DNA from: Actinomarinicola tropica
Lineage (GTDB): Bacteria; Actinomycetota; Acidimicrobiia; Acidimicrobiales; SKKL01
Length of the DNA stretch: 64,000 nucleotides
Assembly: GCF_009650215.1 (NCBI RefSeq)
Contig: NZ_CP045851.1
Location: 1,093,189 to 1,157,188 of the forward strand
Reading direction: 5' to 3'
The notes below the pieces were generated by a model, which saw only the letters and a program-made list of their open reading frames with translations, searched no databases and was not told the DNA's origin. Made by a program: the position numbers and the translations under genes. Of the stretch, positions 27,537 to 58,174 are shown piece by piece. Numbering within the stretch: position 1 is the first letter of the stretch; each line of letters opens with the position of its first letter.

Positions 27537-27563
27537 GATCGGCCGGAGCCGGGGTCACCTGAG
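27537..27563 (-). promoter_or_regulatory. FliA-type promoter for cheY (CTCAGG-N15-CCGATC)
   Basis: On the minus strand CTCAGG (27563-27558), 15 nt, CCGATC (27542-27537). It overlaps the 3' end of flgL and would give a leader of about 26 nt before the cheY ATG at 27502. Confidence 0.55.
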
Positions 27564-30389: not shown

Positions 30390-30416
30390 GTTCGGCCGCC
30401 CCATGCCGCCGATGAG
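30390..30416 (-). promoter_or_regulatory. FliA-type promoter for flgN-flgK-flgL (CTCATC-N15-CCGAAC)
   Basis: Minus strand CTCATC (30416-30411), 15 nt, CCGAAC (30395-30390). The -10 differs by one base from the CCGATC of the other sites. Eight nt separate it from the flgN ATG, as at fliM and the EAL-HDOD gene. Confidence 0.6.
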
Positions 30417-30527: not shown

Positions 30528-30554
30528 CTCATCCGGGCGACCCCGTTCCCGATC
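30528..30554 (+). promoter_or_regulatory. FliA-type promoter for fliC (CTCATC-N15-CCGATC)
   Basis: CTCATC (30528-30533), 15 nt, CCGATC (30549-30554). The flanks match the flhA promoter at 52923 beyond the boxes (CGAACCCTCATC and GGGCGAC in both). Expected mRNA start near 30562, 79 nt before the fliC ATG. Confidence 0.75.
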
Positions 30555-30559
30555 GACTG

Positions 30560-30580
30560 GCTGCCGCAGGAAGCGGTAGC
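30560..30580 (+). promoter_or_regulatory. GGA-loop hairpin in fliC leader, candidate CsrA site
   Basis: Arms 30560-30567 and 30573-30580 pair over 8 bp (one G.U) around the pentaloop AGGAA. GGA in a hairpin loop is the CsrA recognition feature. The predicted mRNA start near 30562 leaves at least a 5-bp stem at the very 5' end. Confidence 0.5.
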
Positions 30581-30624
30581 GGTCCCAGCTCCAGATGGGT
30601 TGGTGACCTCGTTCCAACTTTCAC

Positions 30625-30630
30625 GGAGGA
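30625..30630 (+). promoter_or_regulatory. fliC ribosome site GGAGGA, possible second CsrA site
   Basis: A strong ribosome site 10 nt before the ATG, containing overlapping GGA triplets and flanked by a weak GTTCC/GGAAC inverted repeat (30611-30615 and 30635-30639) that would put it in a loop. Confidence 0.6.
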
Positions 30631-30640
30631 AATCGGAACA

Positions 30641-31828
30641 ATGCGCATCAACCAGAACATCTCGGCCCTCAACTCGTACCGCAACCTGTCCAACACCAAC
30701 ACGGTGATGGGCAAGTCGCTCGAGAAGCTCTCCTCGGGCTTCCGCATCAACCGGGCCGCCGACGACGCCGCCGGCCTCGTCATCAGCCAGGGCCTGCGTG
30801 CCCAGGTCTCCGGCCTCCGCCAGGCCACCCGCAACGCCCAGGACGGCATCTCGGTCGTGCAGACCGCAGAAGGCGCCCTGAACGAGGTCCACAGCATGCT
30901 GAACCGCATGCGTGACCTGGCCGTCCAGTCGGTCAACGCGTCGAACGACAGCGATGCCCGCACCGCGGCCAACAACGAGATCACCGAGCTCAAGGGTGAG
31001 ATCGCCCGCATCGCCGACCAGACCAAGTTCGGCAGCCAGAAGCTGCTGGACGGCTCGTTCGGCGCCACCCCGGCGAGCGTGACCGGCGTCGACGCCGACG
31101 GTGCCTACACCGTCGCCGCCAACGACGACTTCACCCTCAACATCAACGGCACCGGCGCCGTCACCGTCGAGCTCTCGGCCCTGACCGGCGCGAACGCGAC
31201 CGACACCGCCTCCGCCCTCCAGACGGCCATCCGCTCCGCCCTCGCGGCGAGCGGCGACGCCGACATCCAGGCCTTCGCCGACAAGGTGACGGTCACGGGT
31301 GAGACGGTCGGGACCGGCTCGAGCCTCACCCTCGAGATCAGCGGCCTCGCCGACGGCGAGACCTTCACCCTCACCGAGGGCACCAACAACCCGCTGGCCG
31401 CCCTCGGCCTCGGTGGTGCCATCACCGCCGCCGACGGCGACGCTGCCCTGTTCCAGGTCGGCGCCAACGCCGGCGAGACGATCGAGGTCAAGGGCATCGA
31501 CCTGGCTGCGGTCGCCACGGCGATCACCGGTGACGTGACCACGGCGGCGAACGCCACGGCGTTCATCTCCGCCATGGACGACGCCATCGCCGACGTCTCC
31601 GGCTTCCGTGGTCAGCTCGGTGCGGTCCAGAACCGCTTCGAGTCGACCATCAACAACCTCCAGGTCACGACCGAGAACCTGGCCGCCTCGGAGTCCCGCA
31701 TCCGTGACACCGACATGGCGCTCGAGATGGTGTCGTTCACCCGCCACCAGATCCTGACCCAGGCCGGCACGGCGATGCTCGGCCAGGCGAACCAGCTGCC
31801 CCAGGGCGTGCTGCGTCTCCTCGGCTAG
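30641..31828 (+). CDS. fliC: Flagellin
   Basis: A 395-residue flagellin. The D0/D1 ends are highly conserved: MRINQNISALNSYRNL, then KLSSGFRINRAADDAAGL and the C-terminal RIRDTDMALEMVSFTRHQILTQAGTAMLGQAN. Residues about 145-310 form the variable surface domain, rich in Ala, Thr, Asp and Gly, with internal similarity to flagellin D2 repeats. It has a leader of about 79 nt with a CsrA-like hairpin and a strong ribosome site, and its own terminator, as expected for the most abundant product. It is the only flagellin gene in the window. Divergent from flgN. Confidence 0.97.
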   Translation: MRINQNISALNSYRNLSNTNTVMGKSLEKLSSGFRINRAADDAAGLVISQGLRAQVSGLRQATRNAQDGISVVQTAEGALNEVHSMLNRMRDLAVQSVNASNDSDARTAANNEITELKGEIARIADQTKFGSQKLLDGSFGATPASVTGVDADGAYTVAANDDFTLNINGTGAVTVELSALTGANATDTASALQTAIRSALAASGDADIQAFADKVTVTGETVGTGSSLTLEISGLADGETFTLTEGTNNPLAALGLGGAITAADGDAALFQVGANAGETIEVKGIDLAAVATAITGDVTTAANATAFISAMDDAIADVSGFRGQLGAVQNRFESTINNLQVTTENLAASESRIRDTDMALEMVSFTRHQILTQAGTAMLGQANQLPQGVLRLLG

Positions 31829-34548: not shown

Positions 34549-34575
34549 CTCAGCGGAGGCGGGCGGCCTCCGATC
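34549..34575 (+). promoter_or_regulatory. FliA-type promoter for the flgB operon (CTCAGC-N15-CCGATC)
   Basis: CTCAGC (34549-34554), 15 nt, CCGATC (34570-34575). It would drive flgB through flgE. Confidence 0.65.
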
Positions 34576-34710
34576 GCATCGCCTGAGCACGGAGCGCTCG
34601 TGAGCCATCGCCAGGGAACGGCGAGCCCAAGACACCTGTCGACGCGCGAGGTTGACGATGCCCCTGTTCCCTGCCGGCTCTGCCGGTGCTGCCTTCCGGA
34701 CGACCGATCG

Positions 34711-35058
34711 ATGATCGTCTCCGACGCCACCATGCGAGCCCTGCACACCGCTCTGACCGGGCTGAACGCCCGACGTCAGGCAGCAGAGGACAACATCGCC
34801 AACGTCGAGACCGCGGGCTACACCGCGAAGAAGGTCGACTTCGAGGACTCGCTGCGCACCGCGATCGAGCGGGGAGAGCCCCGCGCCGTCGACATCTCCG
34901 TCACCCGGTCGCTCGCGCCGACCCGGATGAACGGCAACAACGTCGCGATCGACGAGGAGATGGTCGGGCTCACCGAGACGGCGCTCCGCCACCAGCTGGT
35001 CGTCGAGGGGATGAACACCAAGTTCCGCCTCCTCCGCACCTCGATCGTGGGGCAGTGA
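34711..35058 (+). CDS. flgB: Flagellar rod protein FlgB
   Basis: A 115-residue FlgB, a proximal rod subunit. The pattern ALHTALTGLNARRQAAEDNIANVETAGYTAKKVDFEDSL is the rod-protein N-terminal signature, and the C-terminus ETALRHQLVVEGMNTKFRLLRTSI is the matching helix. ATG 34711 places this motif at the usual distance; a GTG at 34600 would add 37 residues with no resemblance. First gene of the long flgB-flgE operon. Its TGA overlaps flgC. Confidence 0.93.
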   Translation: MIVSDATMRALHTALTGLNARRQAAEDNIANVETAGYTAKKVDFEDSLRTAIERGEPRAVDISVTRSLAPTRMNGNNVAIDEEMVGLTETALRHQLVVEGMNTKFRLLRTSIVGQ

Positions 35059-47611: not shown

Positions 47612-47638
47612 CTCATCGACAACCGGGCAGGGCCGATC
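47612..47638 (+). promoter_or_regulatory. FliA-type promoter for the fliM-flhB operon (CTCATC-N15-CCGATC)
   Basis: CTCATC (47612-47617), 15 nt, CCGATC (47633-47638). Eight nt separate it from the fliM GTG, implying a leaderless mRNA. Confidence 0.75.
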
Positions 47639-52922: not shown

Positions 52923-52949
52923 CTCATCTGGGCGACGCGACCGCCGATC
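52923..52949 (+). promoter_or_regulatory. FliA-type promoter for flhA (CTCATC-N15-CCGATC)
   Basis: CTCATC (52923-52928), 15 nt, CCGATC (52944-52949). Flanks match the fliC promoter. Leader of about 100 nt to the flhA GTG. Confidence 0.75.
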
Positions 52950-53055
52950 GTCGTGGAGATCACGCTGACCGGACGGACTCGGTCGGTGCACCCAGCTGCC
53001 CACGACGGGCGGCGCTCGACCGGCAGGGACGCCCGGCGACAGGCATGACGGCTCT

Positions 53056-56420: not shown

Positions 56421-56837
56421 GTGCTCATCGAGTCCGAACAGCTGGGAGCCGTCGAGATCGACGACACCAAGGTGCTCAGCTTCCCCGACGGCCTCCTCGG
56501 GTTCCCCGACGTCACCCGCTTCGCGCTGGTCGACGCCGGCGACGATGCCACGTACTTCTGGCTGCAGTCCCTCGACGACCCGCAGCTCGCGTTCCTCGCC
56601 ACGGTGCCCTGGCCGTTCTTCCCCGAGTACGAGCCGGTCCTGTCCGACTCGGACCAGGACGCGCTCGACCTGCAGGACCCGGGCGACGCCATGGTGCTGT
56701 GCCTGCTGACGATCTCCGACGACGCGGTCACCGCGAACCTGCTCGGCCCGCTCGTCGTCAACGCCGTCTCCCGCACCGGCCGCCAGGTGGTGCTCGACGG
56801 GGACCTCCCCACCCGCGCCCCGCTGGCCGCCATCTGA
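56421..56837 (+). CDS. fliW: Flagellar assembly factor FliW
   Basis: A 138-residue FliW, an antagonist of CsrA that also binds flagellin. VLSFPDGLLGFPDVTRFALVD is the signature, then FWLQSLDDPQLAFLATVPWPFFPEYEP and AVTANLLGPLVVNAVSRTGRQVVLD. GTG 56421 is supported by a TAGGCT box 6 nt upstream. Its stop overlaps the csrA ATG (TGATG). The pair sets flagellin translation to secretion, as shown in Bacillus. Confidence 0.96.
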   Translation: MLIESEQLGAVEIDDTKVLSFPDGLLGFPDVTRFALVDAGDDATYFWLQSLDDPQLAFLATVPWPFFPEYEPVLSDSDQDALDLQDPGDAMVLCLLTISDDAVTANLLGPLVVNAVSRTGRQVVLDGDLPTRAPLAAI

Positions 56838-57067
56838 TGCTCGTCCTCAGCCGCCGCACGAACGAGTCGATCGTCATCGGCGGCGAGATCGTCGTCACCG
56901 TGCTCGAGATCAAGGGCGACCAGGTGCGCCTCGGCATCCGCGCCCCCCGGCACGTCACGGTGCACCGCGAGGAGATCCACGCCGAGATCCAGCGGGAGAA
57001 CCGCTCCGCAGCGGTGGTGGGCGACGTCGACCTCGGCCGCCTGCCGAAGCCCTCCGCCGGGGCCTGA
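56837..57067 (+). CDS. csrA: Translational regulator CsrA
   Basis: A 76-residue CsrA, an RNA-binding dimer that recognises GGA in hairpin loops. MLVLSRRTNESIVIGGEIVVTVLEIKGDQVRLGIRAPRHVTVHREEI is the complete family pattern, including the RNA-contacting R and the FliW-responsive region. It is translationally coupled to fliW. The fliC leader carries two plausible GGA targets (30568 and 30625). Confidence 0.97.
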   Translation: MLVLSRRTNESIVIGGEIVVTVLEIKGDQVRLGIRAPRHVTVHREEIHAEIQRENRSAAVVGDVDLGRLPKPSAGA

Positions 57068-57176: not shown

Positions 57177-57292
57177 ATGGGACGGCCGGATCATTTCGGC
57201 CGCCGTCGGCGAAAACCCCTCCAGTTCAGGACCGAACCATCCCGATGCAACGGCTGTACCCAGTCGGAATCGGTCGCAGGTAGGTGGTCCAC

Positions 57293-58174
57293 ATGGAGAT
57301 GACGGCGCAGCAGCGAGAACTGGTCGACAGCCACCTGCCGCTCGTCGAGCACCTCGTCCTGCGGGTGTCCGCGAACTTCCCGCGACACGTCGACCGCAGC
57401 GAGCTCATCGCCGCCGGCAGCCTCGGGCTCGTCGAGGCCGCCATGCGCTACGACGGCGACCGGGGCGTCCCGTTCGGTCGCTACGCCGCCCGTCGCATCC
57501 GCGGCGCCGTCCTCGACGCCGTCCGCGCCGCCGACTGGGCGCCGCGCTCGACCCGGCAGCTCGCCCGCCAGGCCGATGCCGCGACCCAGGCCTTCGCCGC
57601 CCGCACCGGGCGCACCCCGACCGACGAGGAGCTCGCCGACGAGCTCGGCATCGAGGCCGCCGAGCTGGCCGAGATGCGGGGGCGCGTCCACCGGGGCGTC
57701 GTGCAGTCGCTCGAGCCCCGCGCCGGCCAGGACGAGGGCGCCAACCCCCTCGACCGCCTCTTCGACCGCTCGGCCTCCGGTGCCGACGAGCACCTCGAGC
57801 AGGAGGAGCTGCGGGGCTACCTGCGCTCCGCCCTCGAGCACCTTCCCGAGCGTCATCGCATCGTCGTCGTCGGCCACTACTTCGAGCAGCGCTCCTTCGA
57901 CGAGCTCGCCGACTTCCTCGGGGTCACCCCCTCTCGCGTCTCGCAGCTGCGGGCCGACGCCGTCGAGATGATCAAGGACGGCATCGAGGCCCAGTACCGG
58001 CCGAAGGACGACGCCAAGCCGGTCGGTCGGGTGGCGATCCGCCAGGCCCGCTTCGCCGCCGAGATCGCGTCGCACGCCGACTGGCGCACCCGCCTCGATC
58101 CGGGCACCCGCTCGATGGACGCCATCCGCGAGCTCGGCATCGACGGCCTGGCCGACACCGCCGTCAACGCCTAG
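57293..58174 (+). CDS. fliA: FliA/WhiG-type RNA polymerase sigma factor
   Basis: A 293-residue sigma factor of group 3 (FliA/WhiG). Region 2 contains HLVLRVSANFPRHVDRSELIAAGSLGLVEAAMRY and FGRYAARRIRGAVLDAVRAADWAPRS. Region 3 is TPTDEELADELGIEAAELAEMR, and region 4 has the helix-turn-helix FDELADFLGVTPSRVSQLRADAV. About 50 residues follow region 4 with no known match. ATG 57293 lies after AGGTAGGTGG. It is the natural reader of the CTCATC-N15-CCGATC promoters found through the locus. No anti-sigma flgM gene is seen. Confidence 0.95.
   Translation: MEMTAQQRELVDSHLPLVEHLVLRVSANFPRHVDRSELIAAGSLGLVEAAMRYDGDRGVPFGRYAARRIRGAVLDAVRAADWAPRSTRQLARQADAATQAFAARTGRTPTDEELADELGIEAAELAEMRGRVHRGVVQSLEPRAGQDEGANPLDRLFDRSASGADEHLEQEELRGYLRSALEHLPERHRIVVVGHYFEQRSFDELADFLGVTPSRVSQLRADAVEMIKDGIEAQYRPKDDAKPVGRVAIRQARFAAEIASHADWRTRLDPGTRSMDAIRELGIDGLADTAVNA

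Follow-up and report, generated by a model that had tools for sequence, protein, structure and literature searches.

A predicted two-site CsrA target in the fliC leader of an Actinomarinicola tropica flagellar cluster, with candidate sites before flgB and flhA

The window, by which we mean the whole 64,000-nucleotide stretch of Actinomarinicola tropica DNA analysed here, carries the flagellin gene fliC behind a structured leader and, in the same cluster, genes for CsrA, FliW and a sigma factor. The features that bear on fliC are the following.

30528–30553, plus strand: putative motility-sigma-like promoter of fliC, CTCA-N16-CCCGAT (pattern, spacing and place common to two family members)
30560–30580, plus strand: upstream CsrA-type hairpin, GCUGCCGC-AGGAA-GCGGUAGC (sequence inspection, folding and comparison with relatives)
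30581–30608, plus strand: third hairpin, lying between the upstream GGA and that of the ribosome site (MFE fold)
30611–30639, plus strand: weak hairpin whose loop presents the ribosome site ACGGAG; second site of CsrA type (folding)
30641–31828, plus strand: fliC, flagellin (PF00669, PF00700)
56421–56837, plus strand: fliW (PF02623, 2.9e-34; resembles FliW of PDB 5dmb)
56837–57067, plus strand: csrA, sharing its first base with the fliW stop (TIGR00202 above cut-off, PF02599)
57284–58174, plus strand: FliA/WhiG-type sigma factor (TIGR02479, 6.1e-55; 186.4 bits, narrowly missing the cut-off of 189.6)

The upstream hairpin has a stem of 8 bp that includes one G-U pair (arms 30560–30567 and 30573–30580) and holds GGA at 30569–30571 in its AGGAA loop. 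The ribosome site of fliC, ACGGAGGA (ACGGAGG), contains two further GGA trinucleotides, at 30625–30627 and 30628–30630, the first of them 56 nt 3' of the GGA in the upstream loop, and is followed by the fliC ATG at 30641. It lies in the hairpin tttc[ACGGAG]gaaa within GUUCC...GGAAC, in which the inner pairs have a probability of about 0.5 and the first GGA is about 97% unpaired. The initial annotation had placed an AGGAA-loop hairpin of this length at the predicted 5' end of the fliC mRNA and a GGA pair, as ribosome site, downstream of it in a weak hairpin. The coordinates prove right, sequence and fold agree with both elements, and the promoter ends at 30553, 6 nt 5' of the hairpin stem.

The whole leader folds at -39.8 kcal/mol (z -2.58), and 2 of 200 shuffles reached equal stability. 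No Rfam family matched within the window at its gathering score. A hairpin like that at 30581–30608 is present in leader L003 and absent from the MFE fold of L007; it is perhaps a spacer between the two GGA sites. For all four transcript ends examined, the last at 30660, the 5' hairpin has a pairing probability of 1.00. In longer folds that take in fliC coding sequence the probability is 1.00 to +40, 0.00 at +60, 0.63 at +80, 0.11 at +100 and 0.93 at +150, and the hairpin of the window is predicted to be unsteady once coding sequence is included. Leaders of seven relatives were folded likewise; six of the seven hairpins stay at 0.65 or above at all lengths, and that of L014 stands at 0.15 at +100.

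Two family members repeat the fliC promoter with the same N16 spacing and with 5–7 nt to the hairpin, and it is plausible from the sequence that the fliC mRNA begins within a few bases of the 8-bp stem. This prediction assumes the usual promoter-to-start distance. The pattern CTCA-N16-BCCGAW occurs six times in the window (27538–27563, 30391–30416, 30528–30553, 34549–34574, 47612–47637 and 52923–52948), against 2.33 expected, and six sites were reached in 3 of 100 shuffles. These sites stand before flgN, fliC (30528–30553), flgB (34549–34574), fliM, flhA (52923–52948) and a CheY-like gene (flgB, fliM and the CheY-like gene named by eye). A generic sigma-70 promoter scan found nothing. The promoters of flgN and fliM nearly touch the likely start codons, as judged by eye, so that both genes look leaderless. 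The initial annotation had singled out fliC as keeping a leader where flgN and fliM do not; this describes those two genes well, but flgB and flhA also have leaders with GGA hairpins, described below.

We compared the leader with those of other flagellin genes. The order set gave 27 leaders from 30 flagellin loci (L026 is truncated, L031 has no start and L032 is hook-protein-like) and the class and phylum sets gave 118 of 120 (L068 and L080 have no start), with L119 dropped at 54 nt and the start positions of L062 and L084 set by hand. The resulting 144 leaders became 124 once near-duplicates were removed. At thresholds of score 13 and 5 bp, the same for shuffles, a GGA-loop hairpin stands 5' of the ribosome site in 69 of the 124 non-redundant leaders, against a mean of 11.3 and a maximum of 22 in 100 dinucleotide shuffles; for these shuffles and for the arm permutations, near-duplicates were removed and kinship is otherwise uncorrected. 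GGA ranks first of the 64 trinucleotides in the loops, also in the order, class and phylum sets taken singly, where 16/26, 25/48 and 28/50 leaders, respectively, carry the hairpin. Position matters as well: the hairpin is found in 68/122 leaders and in 11/121 of the adjoining upstream stretches of 126 nt, in 1/25 stretches further upstream (15/25 leaders of the same subset), in 1/26 coding starts and in 14/122 reverse-strand controls. Judged by flagellin, the closest relatives with a name are metagenome assemblies of Acidimicrobiia and Ilumatobacteraceae.

The stems differ among relatives and still pair. When arms were exchanged among ANGGAN sites, a stem of at least 4 bp was found in 71/153 native sites against 10.9 on permutation (maximum 20 of 1000, kinship uncorrected), which bears out the covariation that the initial annotation had looked to in related species. 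The 69 hairpins comprise 58 distinct inner stems, and on this comparison it is the pairing of the stem, rather than its sequence, that is conserved. GC-rich sequence might also produce such a hairpin by chance, and there are 22 GGA-loop hairpins scoring at least 20 on the two strands of the window, the fliC one among them. The shuffle, trinucleotide, position and permutation controls all contradict a chance origin, as does the presence of the hairpin in both flagellin-bearing relatives of the same family, and we regard it as very improbable.

The loop is ANGGA in 53/69 hairpins and has the context C-ANGGA-Y-G in 33/69; the base after the GGA is a pyrimidine in 49/69 and G in 11/69. Judged by these counts the loops prefer ANGGA plus a pyrimidine, which is the preference of CsrA, and not GGAG. 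They resemble hexaloops of the form CANGGANG, which PMC4894983 gives as high-affinity sites for CsrA. At the other site, ANGGAN occurs in the final 26 nt of 113/124 flagellin leaders, and stems of at least 4 bp enclose it in 32/113, against 6.4 (maximum 14 of 2000) in permutations with kinship uncorrected. The GGA-to-GGA spacing of 56 nt in the window is above the median of 36 nt in the leaders.

A different function for the hairpin would be to slow mRNA decay as a 5' structure, or to serve as a standby site for ribosomes, with the loop GGA as a mimic of the ribosome site and CsrA having no role. A stable promoter-proximal 5' hairpin could act in this way, the fliC leader is highly structured, and three leaders with hairpins come from genomes with no CsrA match. 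A hairpin serving stability alone gives no reason why GGA should stand above 63 other trinucleotides in the loop, however, and a mimic of the ribosome site predicts GGAG, at odds with the few loops in which G follows. We consider this explanation improbable, though less so than chance.

The link between hairpin and promoter is looser. CTCA-N15/17-BCCGAW occurs in 28/124 flagellin leaders, against 0.65 (maximum 4) in shuffles, and a promoter-like site lies near the hairpin in only 11/69 hairpin-bearing leaders. The promoter is thus well supported within the family, and by its excess among all 124 leaders, and is no universal partner of the hairpin. A separate flagellin search gave 78 loci, of which 59 leaders were scanned and 27 scored above 13, with several match starts differing from the true start codon; Firmicutes leaders mostly scored lower. 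The Clostridium gallinarum leader, tgaca[AGGA]tgtca, scores 12, below the cut of 13, and equals BS1 predicted for C. difficile.

The genome of the window has a single CsrA match (87.8 bits), to a canonical CsrA, and a single FliW match (117.7 bits), the gene for which adjoins csrA. Residues 2–69 of the 76-aa CsrA align with chain D, the CsrA chain of the CsrA–FliW complex 5dmb, and by this alignment the C-terminal extension used for FliW binding is present. At 56835–56839 the fliW stop overlaps the csrA start in TGATG. An overlap of this kind suggests coupled translation of the regulator and its antagonist. The initial annotation had fliW, csrA and fliS all in the fliC locus; they do belong to the same cluster and fliS is close (33545), but fliW and csrA are about 26 kb from fliC.

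The two proteins accompany flagellin across genomes. Among 118 genomes, our own included, 30 have a flagellin-type match, 31 a CsrA match and 29 a FliW match; CsrA is found in 29/30 and FliW in 28/30 of the flagellin-positive ones. In the class, CsrA was found in 54/61 genomes tested (59 further flagellin-positive genomes plus G083 and G078), and 52 of 53 further FliW-positive genomes from the class and phylum have a flagellin-type match.

There are exceptions. With a broader loop range and a later cut than in the fixed-score scan, 21/27 order leaders have the hairpin; five of the six that do not (L005, L011, L013, L021, L023 and L029) come from genomes with csrA and fliW, and two of the six show bulged or mismatched hairpins by eye. 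The initial annotation had held that relatives with fliW and csrA but no GGA hairpin before fliC would refute the switch; these five order-level leaders, and five from family f33, in part speak against it. In family f33 (G035, G084, G302, G347, G425 and G427) all six genomes have a CsrA match, that of G084 split in two, and FliW was found in both genomes examined, G035 and G084. Five of the six f33 leaders fail our test for a hairpin; in the remaining one, L084, the GGA stands in a loop other than ANGGA. The fliC hairpin is therefore common and not universal, because five of six f33 genomes have csrA without it. The family also has extra CsrA matches: those of G302, G425 and G427 stop at model position 44–46, and so perhaps lack the part used by FliW, G347 has two partial matches, and the second match of G035 is nearly full.

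G083, a single case, gave no FliW match, has an unusual CsrA and lacks the fliC hairpin; its flgB leader carries a GGA hairpin. It belongs with G459 to family f32, and in these two genomes CsrA is a one-chain protein of 185–193 aa (L153, 536–1090, plus strand; L154, 485–1063, minus strand), with strand 1 at the N-terminus, about 100 residues in the middle, and the remainder of CsrA, C-terminal extension included, at the far end. The Pfam CsrA family is matched in two stretches, and a PDB comparison of the model (pLDDT 80.9) gave nothing at E 0.001 or better. The protein may be a CsrA in a single chain that has one RNA site. In the four leaders from genomes with no CsrA match, whose assemblies are 74–94% complete, the hairpin is present in G078, G309 and G417 and absent in G292, which counts against the CsrA reading. 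The flagellin contig of G078 (C33, L155), with its GGA-loop hairpin, is from a genome with no csrA or fliW match; the contig may be foreign, or the assembly incomplete.

We consider it very probable that CsrA acts on the fliC leader at two sites, as part of a CsrA–FliW flagellin switch, as the initial annotation had predicted; what such a switch leads one to expect at the sequence level is found here, namely a canonical CsrA and FliW, a GGA at the ribosome site and a co-varying GGA-loop hairpin. Against it stand the relatives' leaders that lack the hairpin, the hairpins in genomes with no CsrA match, the wide GGA spacing and the predicted opening of the window's hairpin in some of the longer transcripts. 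In the proposed mechanism a CsrA dimer would grip the 5' hairpin and take up the ribosome-site GGA on its other face, blocking ribosomes. The third hairpin, at 30581–30608, may draw the two distant sites nearer to each other. Binding of FliW to CsrA would free the fliC mRNA, and unexported flagellin would bind FliW and bring repression back. Both GGA sites, their co-variation and the place of csrA and fliW within the fliC cluster can be read directly from the DNA, and the binding of CsrA, repression, relief by FliW and binding of FliW by flagellin are taken by analogy from Bacillus and Campylobacter.

CsrA–FliW control of flagellin is of a kind already known. As described in PMC7652899, the Bacillus subtilis hag system has CsrA, FliW and two GGA sites, one of them over the ribosome site, as in the window. 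The hag sites quoted in PMC8523840 are A51–A55 and C75–G82, whereas in the window a hairpin separates the GGAs, which are spaced by 56 nt. Campylobacter jejuni flaA, as presented in PMC4894983, has two ANGGA-loop hairpins, the second on the ribosome site, is mainly transcribed by sigma-28 and shows compensatory changes in relatives, all as here; its spacing is 21 nt, compared with 56 nt in the window. A 2008 paper (PMC2587704) proposed that CsrA controls the flagellin of the actinobacterium Kineococcus radiotolerans. The proposal came from the flagellin ribosome site, which matches Bacillus BS2 at 9/12 bases; like the window, this organism has csrA in a motility island. The portion of that paper on which we draw does not include an upstream hairpin, a link to FliW or a comparative test, in contrast to the present analysis. 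A 2015 proposal (PMC4682653) has FliW acting on CsrA in Actinobacteria among others, and in the part of the actinobacterial flagella study PMC10746217 cited here CsrA and FliW appear once each, as search queries. What is new is the breadth of hairpin conservation, as far as leader sequences reveal it. This comparative evidence would carry the feedback switch studied in Bacillus, Clostridioides and Campylobacter over to Actinomycetota, an extension that would be in keeping with an early origin of the CsrA–FliW switch.

The leaders of flgB and flhA are new candidate CsrA targets, on the strength of the following sequence elements.

34549–34574, plus strand: putative motility-sigma-like promoter before flgB (pattern match)
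34584–34624, plus strand: pair of hairpins with GGA in the loop, flgB leader: tgagc[ACGGAGC]gctcg, then tcgcc[AGGGAAC]ggcga (hairpin scan, relatives, arm permutation)
52923–52948, plus strand: putative motility-sigma-like promoter before flhA (pattern match)
52963–52988, plus strand: GGA-loop hairpin in the flhA leader, cgctgaccgg[ACGGAC]tcggtcggtg (hairpin scan; flhA by PF00771)
53022–53033, plus strand: second GGA site in the flhA leader, ggc[AGGGAC]gcc, about 20–25 nt before the start

The flgB hairpins lie 115 and 91 nt from the ATG at 34711 (gene name assigned by eye), and the first flhA hairpin 77 nt from its start. At the second flhA site, ggc[ACGGAC]gcc is found in L244 and L248. Hairpins were counted at score 11 for flgB and score 9 for flhA, with 3 bp, thresholds that were set after inspecting the leaders and applied alike to shuffles; the leader sets include near-duplicates and several flhA starts are uncertain. 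Thirty flgB leaders contain 49 GGA hairpins, against 10.7 (maximum 18) in 100 shuffles, and GGA is the first of 64 trinucleotides in their loops (49), AGG coming next with 24. After the promoter these leaders often have GAGC[ACGGANC]GCUC and then GCC[AGGAN]GGC, and arm permutation gave 25/52 against 7.0 (maximum 16). For flhA, 30 order leaders contain 44 GGA hairpins, where 200 shuffles gave 19.1 (maximum 33). At least two hairpins are present in 16 of these leaders, against 3.8 (maximum 11). The flhA controls held 16 hairpins in 29 stretches from -240 to -120 and 2 in 30 coding starts. GGA exceeds AGG by 44 to 36 at score 9 and, in leaders at score 13, by 14/30 to 11, and arm permutation is borderline (11/37 against 4.4, maximum 11). 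The sequence support for GGA hairpins is thus weaker for flhA. Whole-leader folds favour structures other than the GGA hairpins (z 0.15 for flgB and -0.45 for flhA), and on folding shorter 5' transcripts the hairpins do form.

As GGA hairpins stand behind the same promoter type in the flgB and flhA leaders too, CsrA may control three flagellar operons. We tentatively propose, as a possibility more likely to fail than to hold, that CsrA of Acidimicrobiia governs these three same-promoter operons by repressing fliC and binding the 5' ends of the flgB (rod/base) and flhA (export gate) mRNAs, and that release by FliW on hook completion produces the switch from base to filament. Distant from the start codon, the sites in flgB and the first one in flhA may protect or activate, and repression is possible at the second flhA site, given its place. 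On this proposal the hairpins predict that CsrA sets the timing of genes for the base and for the filament alike. Both flgB hairpins and the first one of flhA lie close to the predicted mRNA 5' end, like the sites of E. coli flhDC, through which CsrA stabilises that flagellar mRNA according to PMC7652899; the likeness is in site position. In the Campylobacter CsrA pull-down reported in PMC4894983, flgB (1.6-fold) and flhA (1.2-fold) were hardly enriched, unlike what the GGA hairpins in their leaders here would suggest. CsrA sites in flgB or flhA leaders were not reported among the matches listed in our search of mostly non-subscription literature.

Abundant fliC mRNA might, in addition, titrate CsrA from other flagellar mRNAs, which would be compatible with the two-site switch. 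In PMC4894983 flaA mRNA is described as titrating CsrA in Campylobacter, a precedent, and the GGA hairpins of the flgB and flhA leaders point the same way. Titration and plain repression look alike from sequence alone, and we hold the former to be rather doubtful.

Among 36 gene starts scanned in the window, GGA hairpins scoring at least 13 lie before fliC, flhA, fliP and fliG; for flgB the ORF start used lay 5' of the true start codon, and its real leader was missed. A whole-genome search for the promoter plus GGA gave 34 places, against 8 with the reversed pattern. Thirty of these loci were inspected, and a hairpin scoring at least 11.5 was found in seven rows that represent six distinct places: fliC, flgB, flhA and three elsewhere in the genome.
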